This document shows, piece after piece, positions 44,319 through 55,383 of a DNA stretch of 64,000 bases. The position numbers were made by a program, and so were the translations under genes. Below the pieces are notes generated by a model. It did not search any database and was not told where the DNA came from. It worked only from the letters and a program-made list of their open reading frames with translations. Origin of the DNA: Lentibacillus halodurans (GTDB taxonomy: Bacteria > Bacillota > Bacilli > Bacillales > Amphibacillaceae); the NCBI RefSeq assembly GCF_900112045.1, contig NZ_FOJW01000001.1, positions 440,734-504,733 of the forward strand, given 5' to 3'. The stretch's first letter is position 1. Each line of letters begins with the position of its first letter.

Positions 44319-45095
44319 TCATAAATTGGCTTGTATTTTTTGAAGTGATTTACGCAGTTTGAATATCGCCTTCCGATGTATTTGTGATATTCTGGATGTT
44401 GTCAGTTCCAGAATATGACCTATTTCCGTCAATGTCAGCTCCTCATGATAGAATAAGCTGACTACCATTTGTTCGTTTTGATTAAGTGACTGCATACTTT
44501 CAATCAGCTCATCTTTTAATTCTGATTGAAGCATATGATCATCCGGCTGTACCGAGGATTGATCCGGTATCGTATAACCAATCCCCTCTTTATGTTCGTT
44601 TTCCTTATTCGGCTTCTCCTCAATCGACAGAATGTTAGCAACCAATGAGTCCCGTGCGAGTTCTTCTACTTCCTCTGCTGACATTTGCAGTTTTTTGGCA
44701 ATTTCTTCTGATGTCGGGTCCCGCTGATAAATTTGTTCCAGTTCCTGTGATGCTTGCTCCACTTTCTTTGCTTTCTCCCGAATGGATCTTGGCAGCCAAT
44801 CTTCTTTTCTCAGCCCATCAATAATTGCACCGCGTATACGAAAGGATGCATATGTATCAAACTTTAATTCGCGGCTATGCTGAAATTTGGTTAACGCATC
44901 AAACAGTCCCATCATGCCAAAACTTTTTAAATCATCCTTGCTCACATTAGAAGGGAGATTAATGGAAACTCTTTCGACATGGTAACTGACAAGATACATA
45001 TAGTTGTCAATTAATTCATTGGCAGCTGACTGATCGTTATCTTCCAGCCATCGTTTCCACAATGACTGCACCAGAGGAGATTCATTTGTACTCAT
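44319..45095 (-). CDS. sigD: RNA polymerase sigma-D factor (FliA type)
   Basis: A 258-residue sigma-28 factor. Region 2 (FGMMGLFDALTKFQHSRELKFDTYA), region 3 (PRSIREKAKKVEQASQELEQ) and region 4 with its helix-turn-helix (LTLTEIGHILELTTSRISQIHRKA) are present (stretches given in part). It directs late flagellar, chemotaxis and autolysin genes. It is the last gene of the main fla/che operon, distant from the promoter as in Bacillus subtilis, where this position makes motility expression bistable. Confidence 0.96.
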   Translation of the reverse strand: MSTNESPLVQSLWKRWLEDNDQSAANELIDNYMYLVSYHVERVSINLPSNVSKDDLKSFGMMGLFDALTKFQHSRELKFDTYASFRIRGAIIDGLRKEDWLPRSIREKAKKVEQASQELEQIYQRDPTSEEIAKKLQMSAEEVEELARDSLVANILSIEEKPNKENEHKEGIGYTIPDQSSVQPDDHMLQSELKDELIESMQSLNQNEQMVVSLFYHEELTLTEIGHILELTTSRISQIHRKAIFKLRKSLQKIQANL

Positions 45096-45148: not shown

Positions 45149-45646
45149 CTAAATAATTGACTCACCTTTATGGATCGTACGAACCTTCAAGGTACCTGCC
45201 GCCGGATCAAATTCAATTGTTCTGCCGCAGTTTCCTCCTACATCCATCGCCTCAGGTGTTATATGATAGTCGTGCAATTTTTCCCGAACGGCCTGTACAT
45301 TTTTAGGTCCAATCCGGATCAAATCGTGAGCTGATTCAAATTCAAACATTTGTGCACCACCGGCTAATTTAGCCTTTAAAGCATATTTCCGAGCACCGAC
45401 TGAATGCAGCATTTCTATTAATATATCAATTGCTGTATCTGCATATTTATAAACATTTTTATTGGCTTGTTTGGCCAGTCTGGAATTCGGAAGCATGATA
45501 TGTGCCAAACCGGCAACTTGTTTGTCCAAATCGTATAAAATGACACCAACACAAGATCCGAGTCCGGACGTTCTGATTTTATCCGGCGCTTTTACAGTTT
45601 TCACATCAGCAATTCCTACTTTTACAATCGATTGCAGCTTACTCAT
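45149..45646 (-). CDS. cheD: Chemoreceptor glutamine deamidase CheD
   Basis: A 165-residue deamidase from the ATG at 45646, which overlaps the cheC stop by 8 bases; a longer frame upstream would run inside cheC. The active-site cysteine is in SGLGSCVGVILYD and the histidine in GLAHIMLPNS. CheD deamidates receptors and is bound by CheC in the adaptation system. It is kept although cheA is missing from this locus. Confidence 0.95.
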   Translation of the reverse strand: MSKLQSIVKVGIADVKTVKAPDKIRTSGLGSCVGVILYDLDKQVAGLAHIMLPNSRLAKQANKNVYKYADTAIDILIEMLHSVGARKYALKAKLAGGAQMFEFESAHDLIRIGPKNVQAVREKLHDYHITPEAMDVGGNCGRTIEFDPAAGTLKVRTIHKGESII

Positions 45647-46274
45647 TTTCTTCAATTCCCAATGATTTAAATAATTCGGAAAACGATTTCGGGTCAGGCA
45701 GGAATAAAAAATTTCCTTGGATGCGCTGATCAAACCCGCTATAGCTTATTTCGGTATCAATGATCAGCACGTAATCGGTCATTTGTGATACTTCAATTAG
45801 TGCATGGGACAATATGGCACCAGCCATATCAATGTGCATGGCCGGAACAGATGGCTGCATGTGAAGACCAGTGAAATCAGAAAGTGCAGACAAATAAGAG
45901 CTTGTAAGGATATTGCCGGTTTCTTTAATAGCAGAGGCTGCAAAATGATCGGTACCTCTGTTGTCTAATTGAACGTGTGGTTGTTTGGTAACACTTTTTG
46001 CCAATGACTCTGCCTCGTTAACCTTGAGAAAAAAGTATACATTTCCCGGAGCATCTCCAAATATATGAATCATAATACTTGCAACAGGAACGTCCGGACC
46101 GCCTATCCATTCCAAAACTTCATCAAATGGAACAATATGAACAGAGGGCACTTGCATATCAACCTTATGATCCATTAATTTTGACATTGAAGTGGCTGCA
46201 TTGCCTGCACCAATATTCCCTGCTTCCCGCAATACATCCAACTGAATATCCGACAAACGGTTAGGTTCTATCAT
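45639..46274 (-). CDS. cheC: CheY-P phosphatase CheC
   Basis: A 211-residue protein with two pseudo-symmetric phosphatase motifs of the CheC/CheX/FliY type: LREAGNIGAGNAA near residue 16 and IKETGNILTSS near residue 113. It removes phosphate from CheY-P and is activated by CheD. The start overlaps the cheW stop by 14 bases, indicating coupled translation. Confidence 0.95.
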   Translation of the reverse strand: MIEPNRLSDIQLDVLREAGNIGAGNAATSMSKLMDHKVDMQVPSVHIVPFDEVLEWIGGPDVPVASIMIHIFGDAPGNVYFFLKVNEAESLAKSVTKQPHVQLDNRGTDHFAASAIKETGNILTSSYLSALSDFTGLHMQPSVPAMHIDMAGAILSHALIEVSQMTDYVLIIDTEISYSGFDQRIQGNFLFLPDPKSFSELFKSLGIEENE

Positions 46275-46749
46275 GTCCTGAATCCCCCGTCAATTCTAAT
46301 TCCTTTATTTCGTCTGCTGACAGAACACGTTTTAAATGAAGCAAGATTAACAGCCGATCATCGGTTTTCGCAACACCTTCAATATAGTCAGCACTTGCCG
46401 CACCCGCTGTTTCCGGTGCAGGTTCAATCGCACTTTCAGGGATATCCATAACATCGTTTGCCGCATCTGCAATCAGACCAACCTCCATATCACCCCAAAA
46501 TACGATGATGATACGGCTCGAAGGTGTAAAGTCGATTTTTTCCATACCAAAACGGGTTCTTAAATCAATAACTGGTGTCACAACACCTCGTAAGTTAATG
46601 ACACCTTTTATAAAATCAGACGTTTGCGGAACTCTTGTAATGAGCTGTATTCGCTCAATGGATCTCACCTGTTGTACAGAAACAGCATAATCTTCATTAT
46701 TCAGCTGAAAAACAATTACTTTGCGGTTTGCAACTGTTTCATCACTCAT
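46261..46749 (-). CDS. cheW: Chemotaxis coupling protein CheW
   Basis: A 162-residue SH3-like coupling protein from the ATG at 46749 (GGAGGAATC upstream). Family features are FQLNNEDYAVSVQQVRSIE and FIKGVINLRGVVTPVIDLR. CheW joins receptors to CheA. Here it lies only 49 bases after cheB, where Bacillus subtilis has the ~2-kb cheA gene. Confidence 0.95.
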   Translation of the reverse strand: MSDETVANRKVIVFQLNNEDYAVSVQQVRSIERIQLITRVPQTSDFIKGVINLRGVVTPVIDLRTRFGMEKIDFTPSSRIIIVFWGDMEVGLIADAANDVMDIPESAIEPAPETAGAASADYIEGVAKTDDRLLILLHLKRVLSADEIKELELTGDSGHDRT

Positions 46750-46798
46750 TTTGATTCCTCCATTAATCACTTTTATTTGACTAGTGCGTTTATACTGA

Positions 46799-47395
46799 TC
46801 ATGAACGCACCTTCACCAGCCTGTTAATCATACCCCCGATTTGTTGTATAGGCGCACAGTGATTCACTAGATTTGTTCCCATTGCTGCTTTGGGCATGCC
46901 GTACACGACTGAAGTCTGTTCTGACTCCGCAATGACCGTAGCATCCACATTGAATTTTTTTAACAGGCGGATACCTTCAGCCCCATCTGCTCCCATTCCA
47001 GTCAGTACAGCAGCAATTTTATGAACATGCTGCAAATATGCCATTGATTCAAAAAGTACATCAACGGAAGGTCTTTGTCCAAACCTGTGTTTTTCTTTAT
47101 TCAGCTTAATCGTATGTTTTTTCCCTGCAGCGCTTATTTTCATATGGTAATCGCCAGGTGCTATGTAGGCTGTGTTATGTTCAATAATCTCCCCGTGGGC
47201 GGCCTCTTTAACATATATGTGTGCTGTTTGATTCAGGCGTTTGGCGAGCGATTGCGTAAATCCCGCCGGCATATGTTGTACTATTAAAACAGGTGCAGAC
47301 AAATTAGCAGGTAAATCAGCCAGAACGCGCTGCAGTGCTTTTGGGCCGCCGGTTGAAGTACCAATTCCTATAACTGCTTCATATAAAGGTTCCAT
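46799..47395 (-). CDS. cheB: CheB methylesterase domain without receiver domain
   Basis: A 198-residue protein covering only the catalytic methylesterase domain of CheB. The triad is complete: Ser14 (GTSTGGPKAL), His41 (VQHMPAGFT) and Asp137 (GMGADGAE). The N-terminal receiver domain (~120 residues) and linker of normal CheB are absent, and the upstream gene flhG ends 3 bases before the ATG, so there is no room for them. GGGGAGATAATTT precedes the start. Without the receiver, phosphorylation by CheA cannot control it; activity may be constitutive. Confidence 0.9.
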   Translation of the reverse strand: MEPLYEAVIGIGTSTGGPKALQRVLADLPANLSAPVLIVQHMPAGFTQSLAKRLNQTAHIYVKEAAHGEIIEHNTAYIAPGDYHMKISAAGKKHTIKLNKEKHRFGQRPSVDVLFESMAYLQHVHKIAAVLTGMGADGAEGIRLLKKFNVDATVIAESEQTSVVYGMPKAAMGTNLVNHCAPIQQIGGMINRLVKVRS

Positions 47396-47398
47396 AAA

Positions 47399-48262
47399 TT
47401 ATCTCCCCATAAGCTGTTTGATCTTTTGTATAAAGGAAATAGATGCGTTATCATCTGCTTCTGGCTTATCTTCCAGGTAACTGGCGACAATTTTTTTAAT
47501 CCCCTTTGAGACTGCAGCTTTTTCATTTAACAACACAAATGGTATTTGGCGTATAACAGCGGTAGATACGGTTTTATCATCAGGAAGTATCCCCAATTTT
47601 CGGACCTCTTTGTTCAAAAATTGCTGAATCACTCGATGAAACCTTTCAAGAGCTTGCTGACCATTTTTAGCAGAGGCAGTACGATTCATGATGACAGATA
47701 GCGGCAGGTCAGGCTTATGATTTACAATATGTTTGATCATCCCATATGCGTCAGTGATGGCTGTAGGTTCAGGGGTCGTCAGGACAATTCCTTCATCAGA
47801 TGCGGCCACGATTGAAAGCGAATCATGTGTTGCTCCTGCCCCCATGTCAAAAATAATATAATCGTATATGTAGATCAGTTCTTCAAATTGCTGAAAAAAA
47901 TAGTTCTGCATTGTACGATCGAGTGTAAGGAGATCATTCAACCCTGAGCCGCCTGAGACATATGCGAGTCCACGGGGACCGGTTTTGATAATTTCATGAA
48001 CAGATAATTGCTCTGCAAACATATCTGCAATCGTCGTATGTGTGTCTAAACCGAGCAAAACATCAACATTTCCCATCCCGATATCAAGATCGAACAACAG
48101 CACCTTCTTCCCATGCCGCAACAGTTCCAGTGAAAAATTAAGTGCGACGTTTGATTTGCCAACGCCACCTTTCCCGCTCACAACCGAGATGGTTTTAGCT
48201 TCCCGCAAACGCTGTGTCATGCCCAGCTTCCTTCTCAGTTTTGCTGCCTGATCATGAATCAT
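47399..48262 (-). CDS. flhG: MinD-like ATPase FlhG
   Basis: A 287-residue MinD/ParA-type ATPase (YlxH in Bacillus) with the deviant Walker A SGKGGVGKSN near residue 30, switch I DLDIGMGNVDVLLG and IIFDMGAG. The ATG at 48262 is chosen because AGGTGA lies 6 bases upstream; the preceding in-frame GTG overlaps that site. It works with FlhF in placing and assembling flagella. It overlaps flhF by 11 bases. Confidence 0.95.
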   Translation of the reverse strand: MIHDQAAKLRRKLGMTQRLREAKTISVVSGKGGVGKSNVALNFSLELLRHGKKVLLFDLDIGMGNVDVLLGLDTHTTIADMFAEQLSVHEIIKTGPRGLAYVSGGSGLNDLLTLDRTMQNYFFQQFEELIYIYDYIIFDMGAGATHDSLSIVAASDEGIVLTTPEPTAITDAYGMIKHIVNHKPDLPLSVIMNRTASAKNGQQALERFHRVIQQFLNKEVRKLGILPDDKTVSTAVIRQIPFVLLNEKAAVSKGIKKIVASYLEDKPEADDNASISFIQKIKQLMGR

Positions 48263-49361
48263 TCTGTTCACCTGCTATCAATTCACTGATCATTTGCGCA
48301 TTAGGTTTCATAATATCGTCAGGAACATCCTGGCCATTTGTCAGAAAAGCAATGCCTAACTTATGCTTTAATGCGATATTCAAAATGCTTCCATATTGTC
48401 GTGTCTCATCAACCTTCGTGAAAATAACGTTCTGTATTGGTAAATGCTGAAATTGATCATATATTTTCATTATATCACTTGTTTTTGCTGTCAGAGAGAG
48501 AACAAGACAGGTTTCAACATTCCGATTAAAGGTAATGGTTTTTTCCAGGTCCCGTACATATTTTTCATCGCGGAAATTTCTCCCAGCGGTATCGACAAGA
48601 ATTAAATCATAGGATGCAAACTTGTCGACCGCTGCTTTGTAATCTGATGGATTATAAACAACTTCCAGCGGAATATTGAGTATATTCGCGTATGTTTTTA
48701 ATTGTTCGACCGCTGCAATTCGGTATGTATCAGCCGTAATGAGGGCGACTTGCTTACCATCGTTCATCATGCTTGATGCGGCGACTTTAGCAATCGTCGT
48801 TGTTTTCCCTGCACCTGTTGGACCGACAAACTGGATAAGCTTGTTATTTGCGGGCAAACCTTCAAAATTTAATGCGCTTAATCTATTTTCTATTTCGTGC
48901 TTCACATCCTGCAGAATCGTATCCCGGTCGGGCATGACACCATCTGTATTTTCATGGTTGCGGCCAACATCATCCAATAGACTTTTGGCGAGATCTTCAT
49001 CTACCTCCTGATCGAGCAAATCGTGATAGATGATCTGATAATCGACGGGGTAGTCAGCATTGTTTACAGTCTGCACTTCAACCATTTTTCTCAGCTGTTT
49101 AATTTCATTTAACACAGGACTATCTATAACCGGCATTTTATGACTCGGTGTTTGTTTTACTGGCTCCTTCTCTCGCTTAACCGGTTTAGGCTGCGGATCC
49201 AGTGCAGCAACAACTTCAATATTCCTTTTTTTGAAAAGCCCCAGAAAACCACCTTTGAAAACCACTTTTGAATTTAAAATGACAGCTTCCAGGCCAAGTT
49301 CTTTCCGGACATGATTCATCGCTTCTGGCATCGTTGGCGCTACAAACTTTTTTACCTTCAT
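48252..49361 (-). CDS. flhF: Flagellar SRP-type GTPase FlhF
   Basis: A 369-residue SRP-like GTPase: a basic N-terminal domain (MKVKKFVAPTMPEAMNHVRK), an N domain, and the G domain with FVGPTGAGKTTTIAKVA, LVDTAGRNFRD and TKVDETRQYG. It positions the flagellar basal body and its GTPase activity is stimulated by FlhG. The start overlaps the flhA stop by 4 bases. Confidence 0.96.
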   Translation of the reverse strand: MKVKKFVAPTMPEAMNHVRKELGLEAVILNSKVVFKGGFLGLFKKRNIEVVAALDPQPKPVKREKEPVKQTPSHKMPVIDSPVLNEIKQLRKMVEVQTVNNADYPVDYQIIYHDLLDQEVDEDLAKSLLDDVGRNHENTDGVMPDRDTILQDVKHEIENRLSALNFEGLPANNKLIQFVGPTGAGKTTTIAKVAASSMMNDGKQVALITADTYRIAAVEQLKTYANILNIPLEVVYNPSDYKAAVDKFASYDLILVDTAGRNFRDEKYVRDLEKTITFNRNVETCLVLSLTAKTSDIMKIYDQFQHLPIQNVIFTKVDETRQYGSILNIALKHKLGIAFLTNGQDVPDDIMKPNAQMISELIAGEQNDS

Positions 49362-54994: not shown

Positions 54995-55357
54995 CTAGCC
55001 TAAAACTTTTCCGATTGCTTCAAGGACCCGATCTGCCTGAAAAGGTTTCACGATAAAATCTTTCGCTCCAGCCTGAATAGCATCAATCACCATTGCCTGT
55101 TGTCCCATCGCGGAGCACATGATGACATTCGCATCTGCATCGATTTCATTAATTTCCTTTAACGCAGCCAACCCGTCCTTTTCCGGCATTGTGATATCAA
55201 GCGTAACAAGGTCCGGCTGTAATTCCTTATATTGATCCACCGCCTGATTGCCATCCTGTGCTTCTCCCACAACATCGAAACCGTTTTTGTCCAGAATATC
55301 TTTTATCATCATCCGCATGAATGCTGCATCGTCCACGATTAAAACACGTTGTGCCAT
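54995..55357 (-). CDS. cheY: Chemotaxis response regulator CheY
   Basis: A 120-residue single receiver domain from the ATG at 55357. The acid pocket is Asp9-Asp10, the phosphorylation site Asp54 (VTLDITMPEKDG), with Ser82 and Lys104 (FIVKPF). CheY-P binds FliM/FliY and, in Bacillus, favours smooth swimming. It needs CheA, which is not in this window. Confidence 0.96.
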   Translation of the reverse strand: MAQRVLIVDDAAFMRMMIKDILDKNGFDVVGEAQDGNQAVDQYKELQPDLVTLDITMPEKDGLAALKEINEIDADANVIMCSAMGQQAMVIDAIQAGAKDFIVKPFQADRVLEAIGKVLG

Positions 55358-55383
55358 ATTATTTAAATCCTCCCTGACCATTA

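Follow-up and report, generated by a model that had tools for sequence, protein, structure and literature searches.

In Bacillus subtilis, the flagellar/chemotaxis operon has the order flhF-flhG-cheB-cheA-cheW-cheC-cheD-sigD, and textbooks present the phosphorylation of CheB as the negative feedback in chemotaxis. The role of this feedback has been called a long-standing open question, and the catalytic domain of E. coli CheB on its own is described, in the part of that work used here, as retaining activity and precise adaptation while losing the phosphorylation feedback, with a bimodal population and poor migration in soft agar (PMC5809149). A model of B. subtilis, so far as the cited section of it goes, judges CheB phosphorylation implausible as a selective control and proposes CheC, CheD and CheY-P as a further control of methylation (PMC340952). 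In the Campylobacterota, lack of the receiver in CheB has been published as a marker of the F3 chemosensory class (PMC9321776, in the section cited here). Outside the Campylobacterota we recognised no report of such a CheB in the open-licence literature, going by titles and the starts of abstracts, nor, by the same means, any report of a loss of the operon cheA accompanied by a second CheA cluster; the cited part of PMC2829493 likewise holds nothing on a CheB without a receiver. The receiver-less CheB as such is already known from the F3 class; its occurrence on the Bacillus side is without a recognised report, although such a report may exist.

The window, which is the whole stretch of 64,000 nucleotides of Lentibacillus halodurans DNA analysed here, carries on its minus strand the gene order flhF, flhG, cheB, cheW, cheC, cheD, sigD. 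This locus resembles the operon of the B. subtilis type in its gene order on both sides, in encoding CheC and CheD, and in having one CheB; it differs from that operon in the absence of cheA and in a CheB that lacks the receiver. The features are as follows, in window coordinates.

47399-48271, minus strand: flhG, a ParA/MinD-type ATPase by Pfam, its place and order matching the relatives
47396-47398, minus strand: gap of 3 bases from the flhG stop to the cheB ATG (47395), from the junction sequence
46799-47395, minus strand: cheB, esterase domain only, 198 aa, by Pfam, with the catalytic residues Ser14/His41/Asp137
46750-46798, minus strand: gap of 49 bases from the cheB stop to the cheW ATG (46749), the site of cheA in several relatives
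46261-46749, minus strand: cheW, 162 aa, Pfam CheW at 124 bits
45639-46274, minus strand: cheC, by Pfam family match
45149-45643, minus strand: cheD, 164 aa with an inner ATG chosen as the start, by Pfam family match
44319-45095, minus strand: sigD, aligned in relatives
54995-55360, minus strand: cheY of the flagellar operon, Response_reg at 110 bits
55384-56511, minus strand: fliY, with CheC-like and FliN-like domains

The names flhG, sigD, fliY and cheY of the flagellar operon are those that we take to apply to these genes. The coordinates and the two distances around cheB (3 and 49 bases) had been given correctly in a preliminary description of this DNA. Just upstream of the cheB ATG, GGGGAGAT could serve as a ribosome binding site, judged by eye.

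The 198-aa CheB consists almost entirely of the methylesterase domain. Its sole Pfam family is PF01339, matched over profile positions 1-173 of 174 at 202 bits (cut-off 24), and the N-terminal receiver of the two-domain architecture (receiver plus esterase) is absent by Pfam. Residues 14, 41 and 137 are Ser, His and Asp and align with those of relatives; we take them to be the catalytic triad of CheB. The earlier claim of an esterase-only protein with these three residues is thus confirmed by Pfam and by the residue check. With one receiver domain as query, tblastn gave no match to a receiver remnant at 46000-48400 (E<=1), and the same query recovered the receivers of relatives. In the readable assembly, which excludes the N stretches that make up three short contigs and some of a fourth, this is the one CheB in total; a second, full-length CheB is not among its genes. 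The CheB is presumably not phosphorylatable by the usual route. The preliminary description had set an unregulated methylesterase against a cheA that had moved; since the assembly holds no second CheB, the methylesterase may indeed be unregulated, and may be so alongside a CheA encoded elsewhere. Among the named genomes listed, the best match to this CheB is that of Virgibacillus oceani (58%).

The genome comprises 3.67 Mb in 31 contigs, with a completeness of 99.95%. A tblastn search of the window with two CheA proteins gave chance matches only (E 8.8 and 9.8), and the CheA dimerisation family PF02895 has 0 matches in the whole readable assembly, where we counted one CheW-domain match (the operon CheW), one CheR and five MCP signal domains. 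The PF02895 result, taken to mean that the genome has no CheA, was overturned by a full-length query: the CheA of the relative G004 matches with its residues 6-135 at C26:35-424 and C30:35-424 (61% identity, E 2.6e-45). At both places 138 codons are readable, and the open frame runs off the start of the contig. The 138 aa, read from C30, contain a whole Hpt domain (77 bits, Pfam) and FRSAHTLKG, presumably the motif that holds the phosphorylated His of CheA. The best match of the fragment is the CheA of G043 (72%, 191 bits); among the CheAs compared, all second-cluster rows score 152-191 bits with it, and operon rows score at most 152. A second cheA start with its Hpt domain thus stands at two contig starts, and the absence of cheA stated earlier is true of the locus but not of the genome. 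The earlier suggestion that cheA moved elsewhere is mostly right: another part of the genome does encode a CheA, but its gene is a paralogue within a distinct motAB/che/mcp cluster and not the operon gene relocated.

In the relatives G001 and G004, the second cluster has the identical order EAL-motA-motB-cheX-cheA-cheW-cheY-mcp, which is matched by the order EAL-motA-motB-cheX-cheA(5') on C30. This is the likeness to the second che cluster found in the family (G001, G004, G024, G043 and others); unlike there, the block from cheA to mcp is here apparently duplicated, and its middle is unread in the assembly. C26 and C30 are identical over their first 448 bases and then diverge, C30 continuing into cheX and C26 into a YheC/D-type ATP-grasp gene. 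One duplicated cheA start thereby adjoins cheX-motB-motA and the other the ATP-grasp gene (genome G000; loci L245, L246, L053, L054). Two MCP matches at identical coordinates (344-850) of C11 and C25 raised the suspicion of a repeat at contig ends there too. Both of these contigs open with MCP residues 351-681 (79-80% identity to the second-cluster MCP); they are identical over their first 732 bases, show 10 mismatches at positions 733-994 as far as the MCP stop, and diverge beyond it, C11 into a short MCP-like gene and C25 into a TetR gene. For the rest of the MCP of C11 and C25, residues 1-350, no completing match turned up at the end of a contig or anywhere else. The short MCP-like gene beside the cut MCP (C11 1077-1967, L053) is a frame of 297 aa with an MCP signalling domain at 107 bits.

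These four contig ends are read most simply as a cheA-cheW-cheY-mcp block that was apparently duplicated not long ago; alternatively, they may reflect two short, separate repeats or a fault of the assembly. Because the order in congeners is motA-motB-cheX-cheA-cheW-cheY-mcp, about 3.5 kb of the second cluster is missing from the assembly (the corresponding stretch in G001 is 3479 bp), probably because the shared middle of two near-identical copies was lost in assembly. All three second-cluster CheAs of relatives that were scanned (G001, G035, G043) have P1, P2, dimerisation, ATPase and CheW domains, P2 being the domain that binds response regulators. The readable assembly of this genome lacks the remainder of CheA2, the second CheA, along with CheW2 and CheY2, so CheA2 could in reality be truncated. 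A profile search that reports no CheA in a draft of 99.95% completeness can stem from an assembly gap.

We put the probability that the chemotaxis system is complete but rewired, and of the Bacillus type, at roughly 85%. CheR and MCPs are encoded in the genome, as is the 5' part of a second-cluster cheA, which adjoins cheX, motB and motA. CheA2 would be whole in the cell, hidden by the gap of about 3.5 kb that the two near-identical cheA-cheW-cheY-mcp copies would have left in the assembly; it would phosphorylate the CheY of the operon and run the array. The receiver-less CheB would be constitutively active and no longer tuned by CheA, and the remaining adaptation would be carried by CheR, CheC and CheD. 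The likely sequence of events is that the operon cheA was lost first, that the paralogue took over and that the receiver was lost later. With CheC and CheD both retained in the window, the loss of feedback through CheB may be of little consequence. Overall, the chemotaxis system seems to be rearranged and is probably intact.

The alternative that fares best, improbable as we consider it, is that no working CheA exists in the genome, the second cheA being a fragment or pseudogene and the other che genes relics of a dying system. The empty PF02895 search would fit such decay, as would the lack of any CheA, CheB, CheR or MCP match in five of the 12 genomes that represent the genus, the single weak MCP match of a sixth, and the state of G008, where all that remains is a CheA frame shortened to 555 aa. 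The cheA frame of this genome, however, is open to both contig edges with its Hpt domain whole, and CheB, CheW, CheC, CheD, CheY and CheR all have open frames that match their own families. Moreover, what is missing forms a single collinear segment, and contig ends so nearly identical point more to a recent duplication than to decay.

The preferred reading of a complete but rewired system also draws on the relatives. Among 100 genomes searched, this one included, CheA was found in 87, CheB in 82, MCP in 86 and CheR in 86. The order flhG-cheB-cheA-cheW is kept in G001, G009, G010 and G024. Of the 82 CheB genomes, 14 have a flagellar-type cheB without an adjoining cheA, the window genome included; these were counted by eye from match coordinates and confirmed by gene maps in all 13 relatives, and the other 68 CheB genomes are gene-mapped in part. 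The same cheA-less layout, which the preliminary description had proposed to look for in related genomes, is thus found in 13 relatives, one of which, G035, has also lost the receiver. Each of the 13 encodes a CheA elsewhere, of the second-cluster type in G004, G015, G025, G035, G041, G043, G045, G049, G055 and G058 and of another type in G061, G064 and G093; with the fragment of this genome counted, 11 of the 14 genomes with a cheA-less operon have a second-cluster CheA.

In a tree of CheA proteins, all 15 rows of second-cluster CheAs group together (support 100/99; the fragment of this genome is not among them), and on this ground the operon cheA was seemingly lost where a paralogue was available and not simply moved. 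The tree omits G008 (partial frame), L003 and L014 (short motif unmatched), L007 and L010 (genomes already in), L005, and CheAs lacking a fetched locus. The operon CheAs of the distant relatives G066 and G073 fall beside the second-cluster group (95/89, 17 rows), so that the split between operon and second-cluster CheAs is not clean at the level of the order.

Flagellar-type CheBs without a receiver occur in seven of the 82 CheB genomes: the window genome, G035, G037, G066, G073, G091 and G099. A lenient search found no receiver remnant at any of the seven cheB loci. G035 repeats the arrangement of the window, with no operon cheA, a receiver-less CheB and a CheA in the second cluster. In G043, which also lacks the operon cheA, the receiver is full-length and decayed (L216 4164-4508; 25.9 bits against a cut-off of 30.2, compared with 84.2 bits for the receiver of G004) and is altered in the alignment at several conserved positions; its CheB is a possible intermediate toward receiver loss. 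Receiver loss shows no significant link with loss of the neighbouring cheA (2/14 vs 5/68, Fisher p 0.34), also when the decayed receiver of G043 is counted (3/14 vs 5/68, p 0.13).

In a tree of the CheB esterase domain, which covers 25 of the 82 CheB genomes and is weakly resolved with long branches, the window CheB groups with that of G004 (support 95/90). G004 has neither cheA nor cheW in its operon and has a full-length CheB with a receiver, which suggests that the operon cheA was lost first and the receiver later. Since the window keeps cheW, the cheA losses of the two genomes could be separate events. A single clade for all seven receiver-less CheBs, whose membership was fixed from domain content ahead of tree building, was rejected (p-AU 0.00026); therefore the receiver was probably lost more than once.

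These data bear on a further alternative, advanced in the preliminary description, that the operon cheA was lost in one and the same deletion as the 5' half of cheB. Both window junctions are tight and G035 has the same double loss, as such an event would leave them. The missing pieces are nevertheless not contiguous, the esterase half of cheB lying between the receiver and cheA; 11 relatives without operon cheA, namely G004, the nearest in the CheB tree, and ten others, keep a recognisable receiver, and cheA still adjoins the receiver-less cheB in G037, G066, G073, G091 and G099. We consider a single deletion very unlikely, in particular because G004 is without operon cheA and keeps its full-length CheB. 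An assembly error that dropped about 2.5 kb between flhG and cheW, raised earlier for positions 46740-47400, is, judged from the assembly, highly unlikely: the assembly does break, but at the second che cluster, and the window is free of N, the locus lies inside a contig of 510,136 bases (510 kb), G035 has the same gene order and receiver-less CheB, and 12 more relatives lack the operon cheA.

Returning to the rewired system, a broader and quite tentative proposal is that the second-cluster CheA has repeatedly taken over flagellar chemotaxis in this family. Feedback from the kinase to CheB would then be dispensable; CheB would decay, as in G043, or drop its receiver, as in this genome and G035, leaving a constant esterase and a negative feedback by CheC, CheD and CheY-P alone. 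If this were true, these genomes would present in nature what has been engineered in E. coli as the CheBc network. The window CheB is like CheBc in its content, the catalytic domain alone (PMC5809149, in the part used here), and unlike it in being natural and in belonging to a system with CheC and CheD. Bacillus relatives with and without the receiver offer natural pairs for testing the purpose of the feedback when CheC and CheD are present.

The likeness to the F3 class of the Campylobacterota lies in the CheB without a receiver (PMC9321776, in its cited section). Unlike in the F3 class, there is no cheVAW operon here, no CheV is seen in the assembly, and the second cheA adjoins cheX. The operon CheW is the sole CheW-domain match in the readable assembly, and an extra receiver on CheA, another F3 feature, is absent from all three second-cluster CheAs of relatives that were scanned.

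Within the genus, whole-system loss is seen in five of the 12 genomes (G002, G003, G006, G007, G011), which have no match to CheA, CheB, CheR or MCP; G005 has one weak MCP match only. In G008, where CheB, CheR and MCP are unmatched, the shortened second-cluster CheA frame (L061 6189-7853) looks like a leftover. Beyond the 100 genomes, at least 80 loci in named genomes match peptide patterns of the window CheB by which they were chosen, a sample and not a census; among the 80 loci kept, one (L209) has fewer than 80 open codons before the esterase. In this locus, from the more distant Firmicute Parablautia muri, a receiver-less CheB lies directly before cheA, as seen by tblastn.
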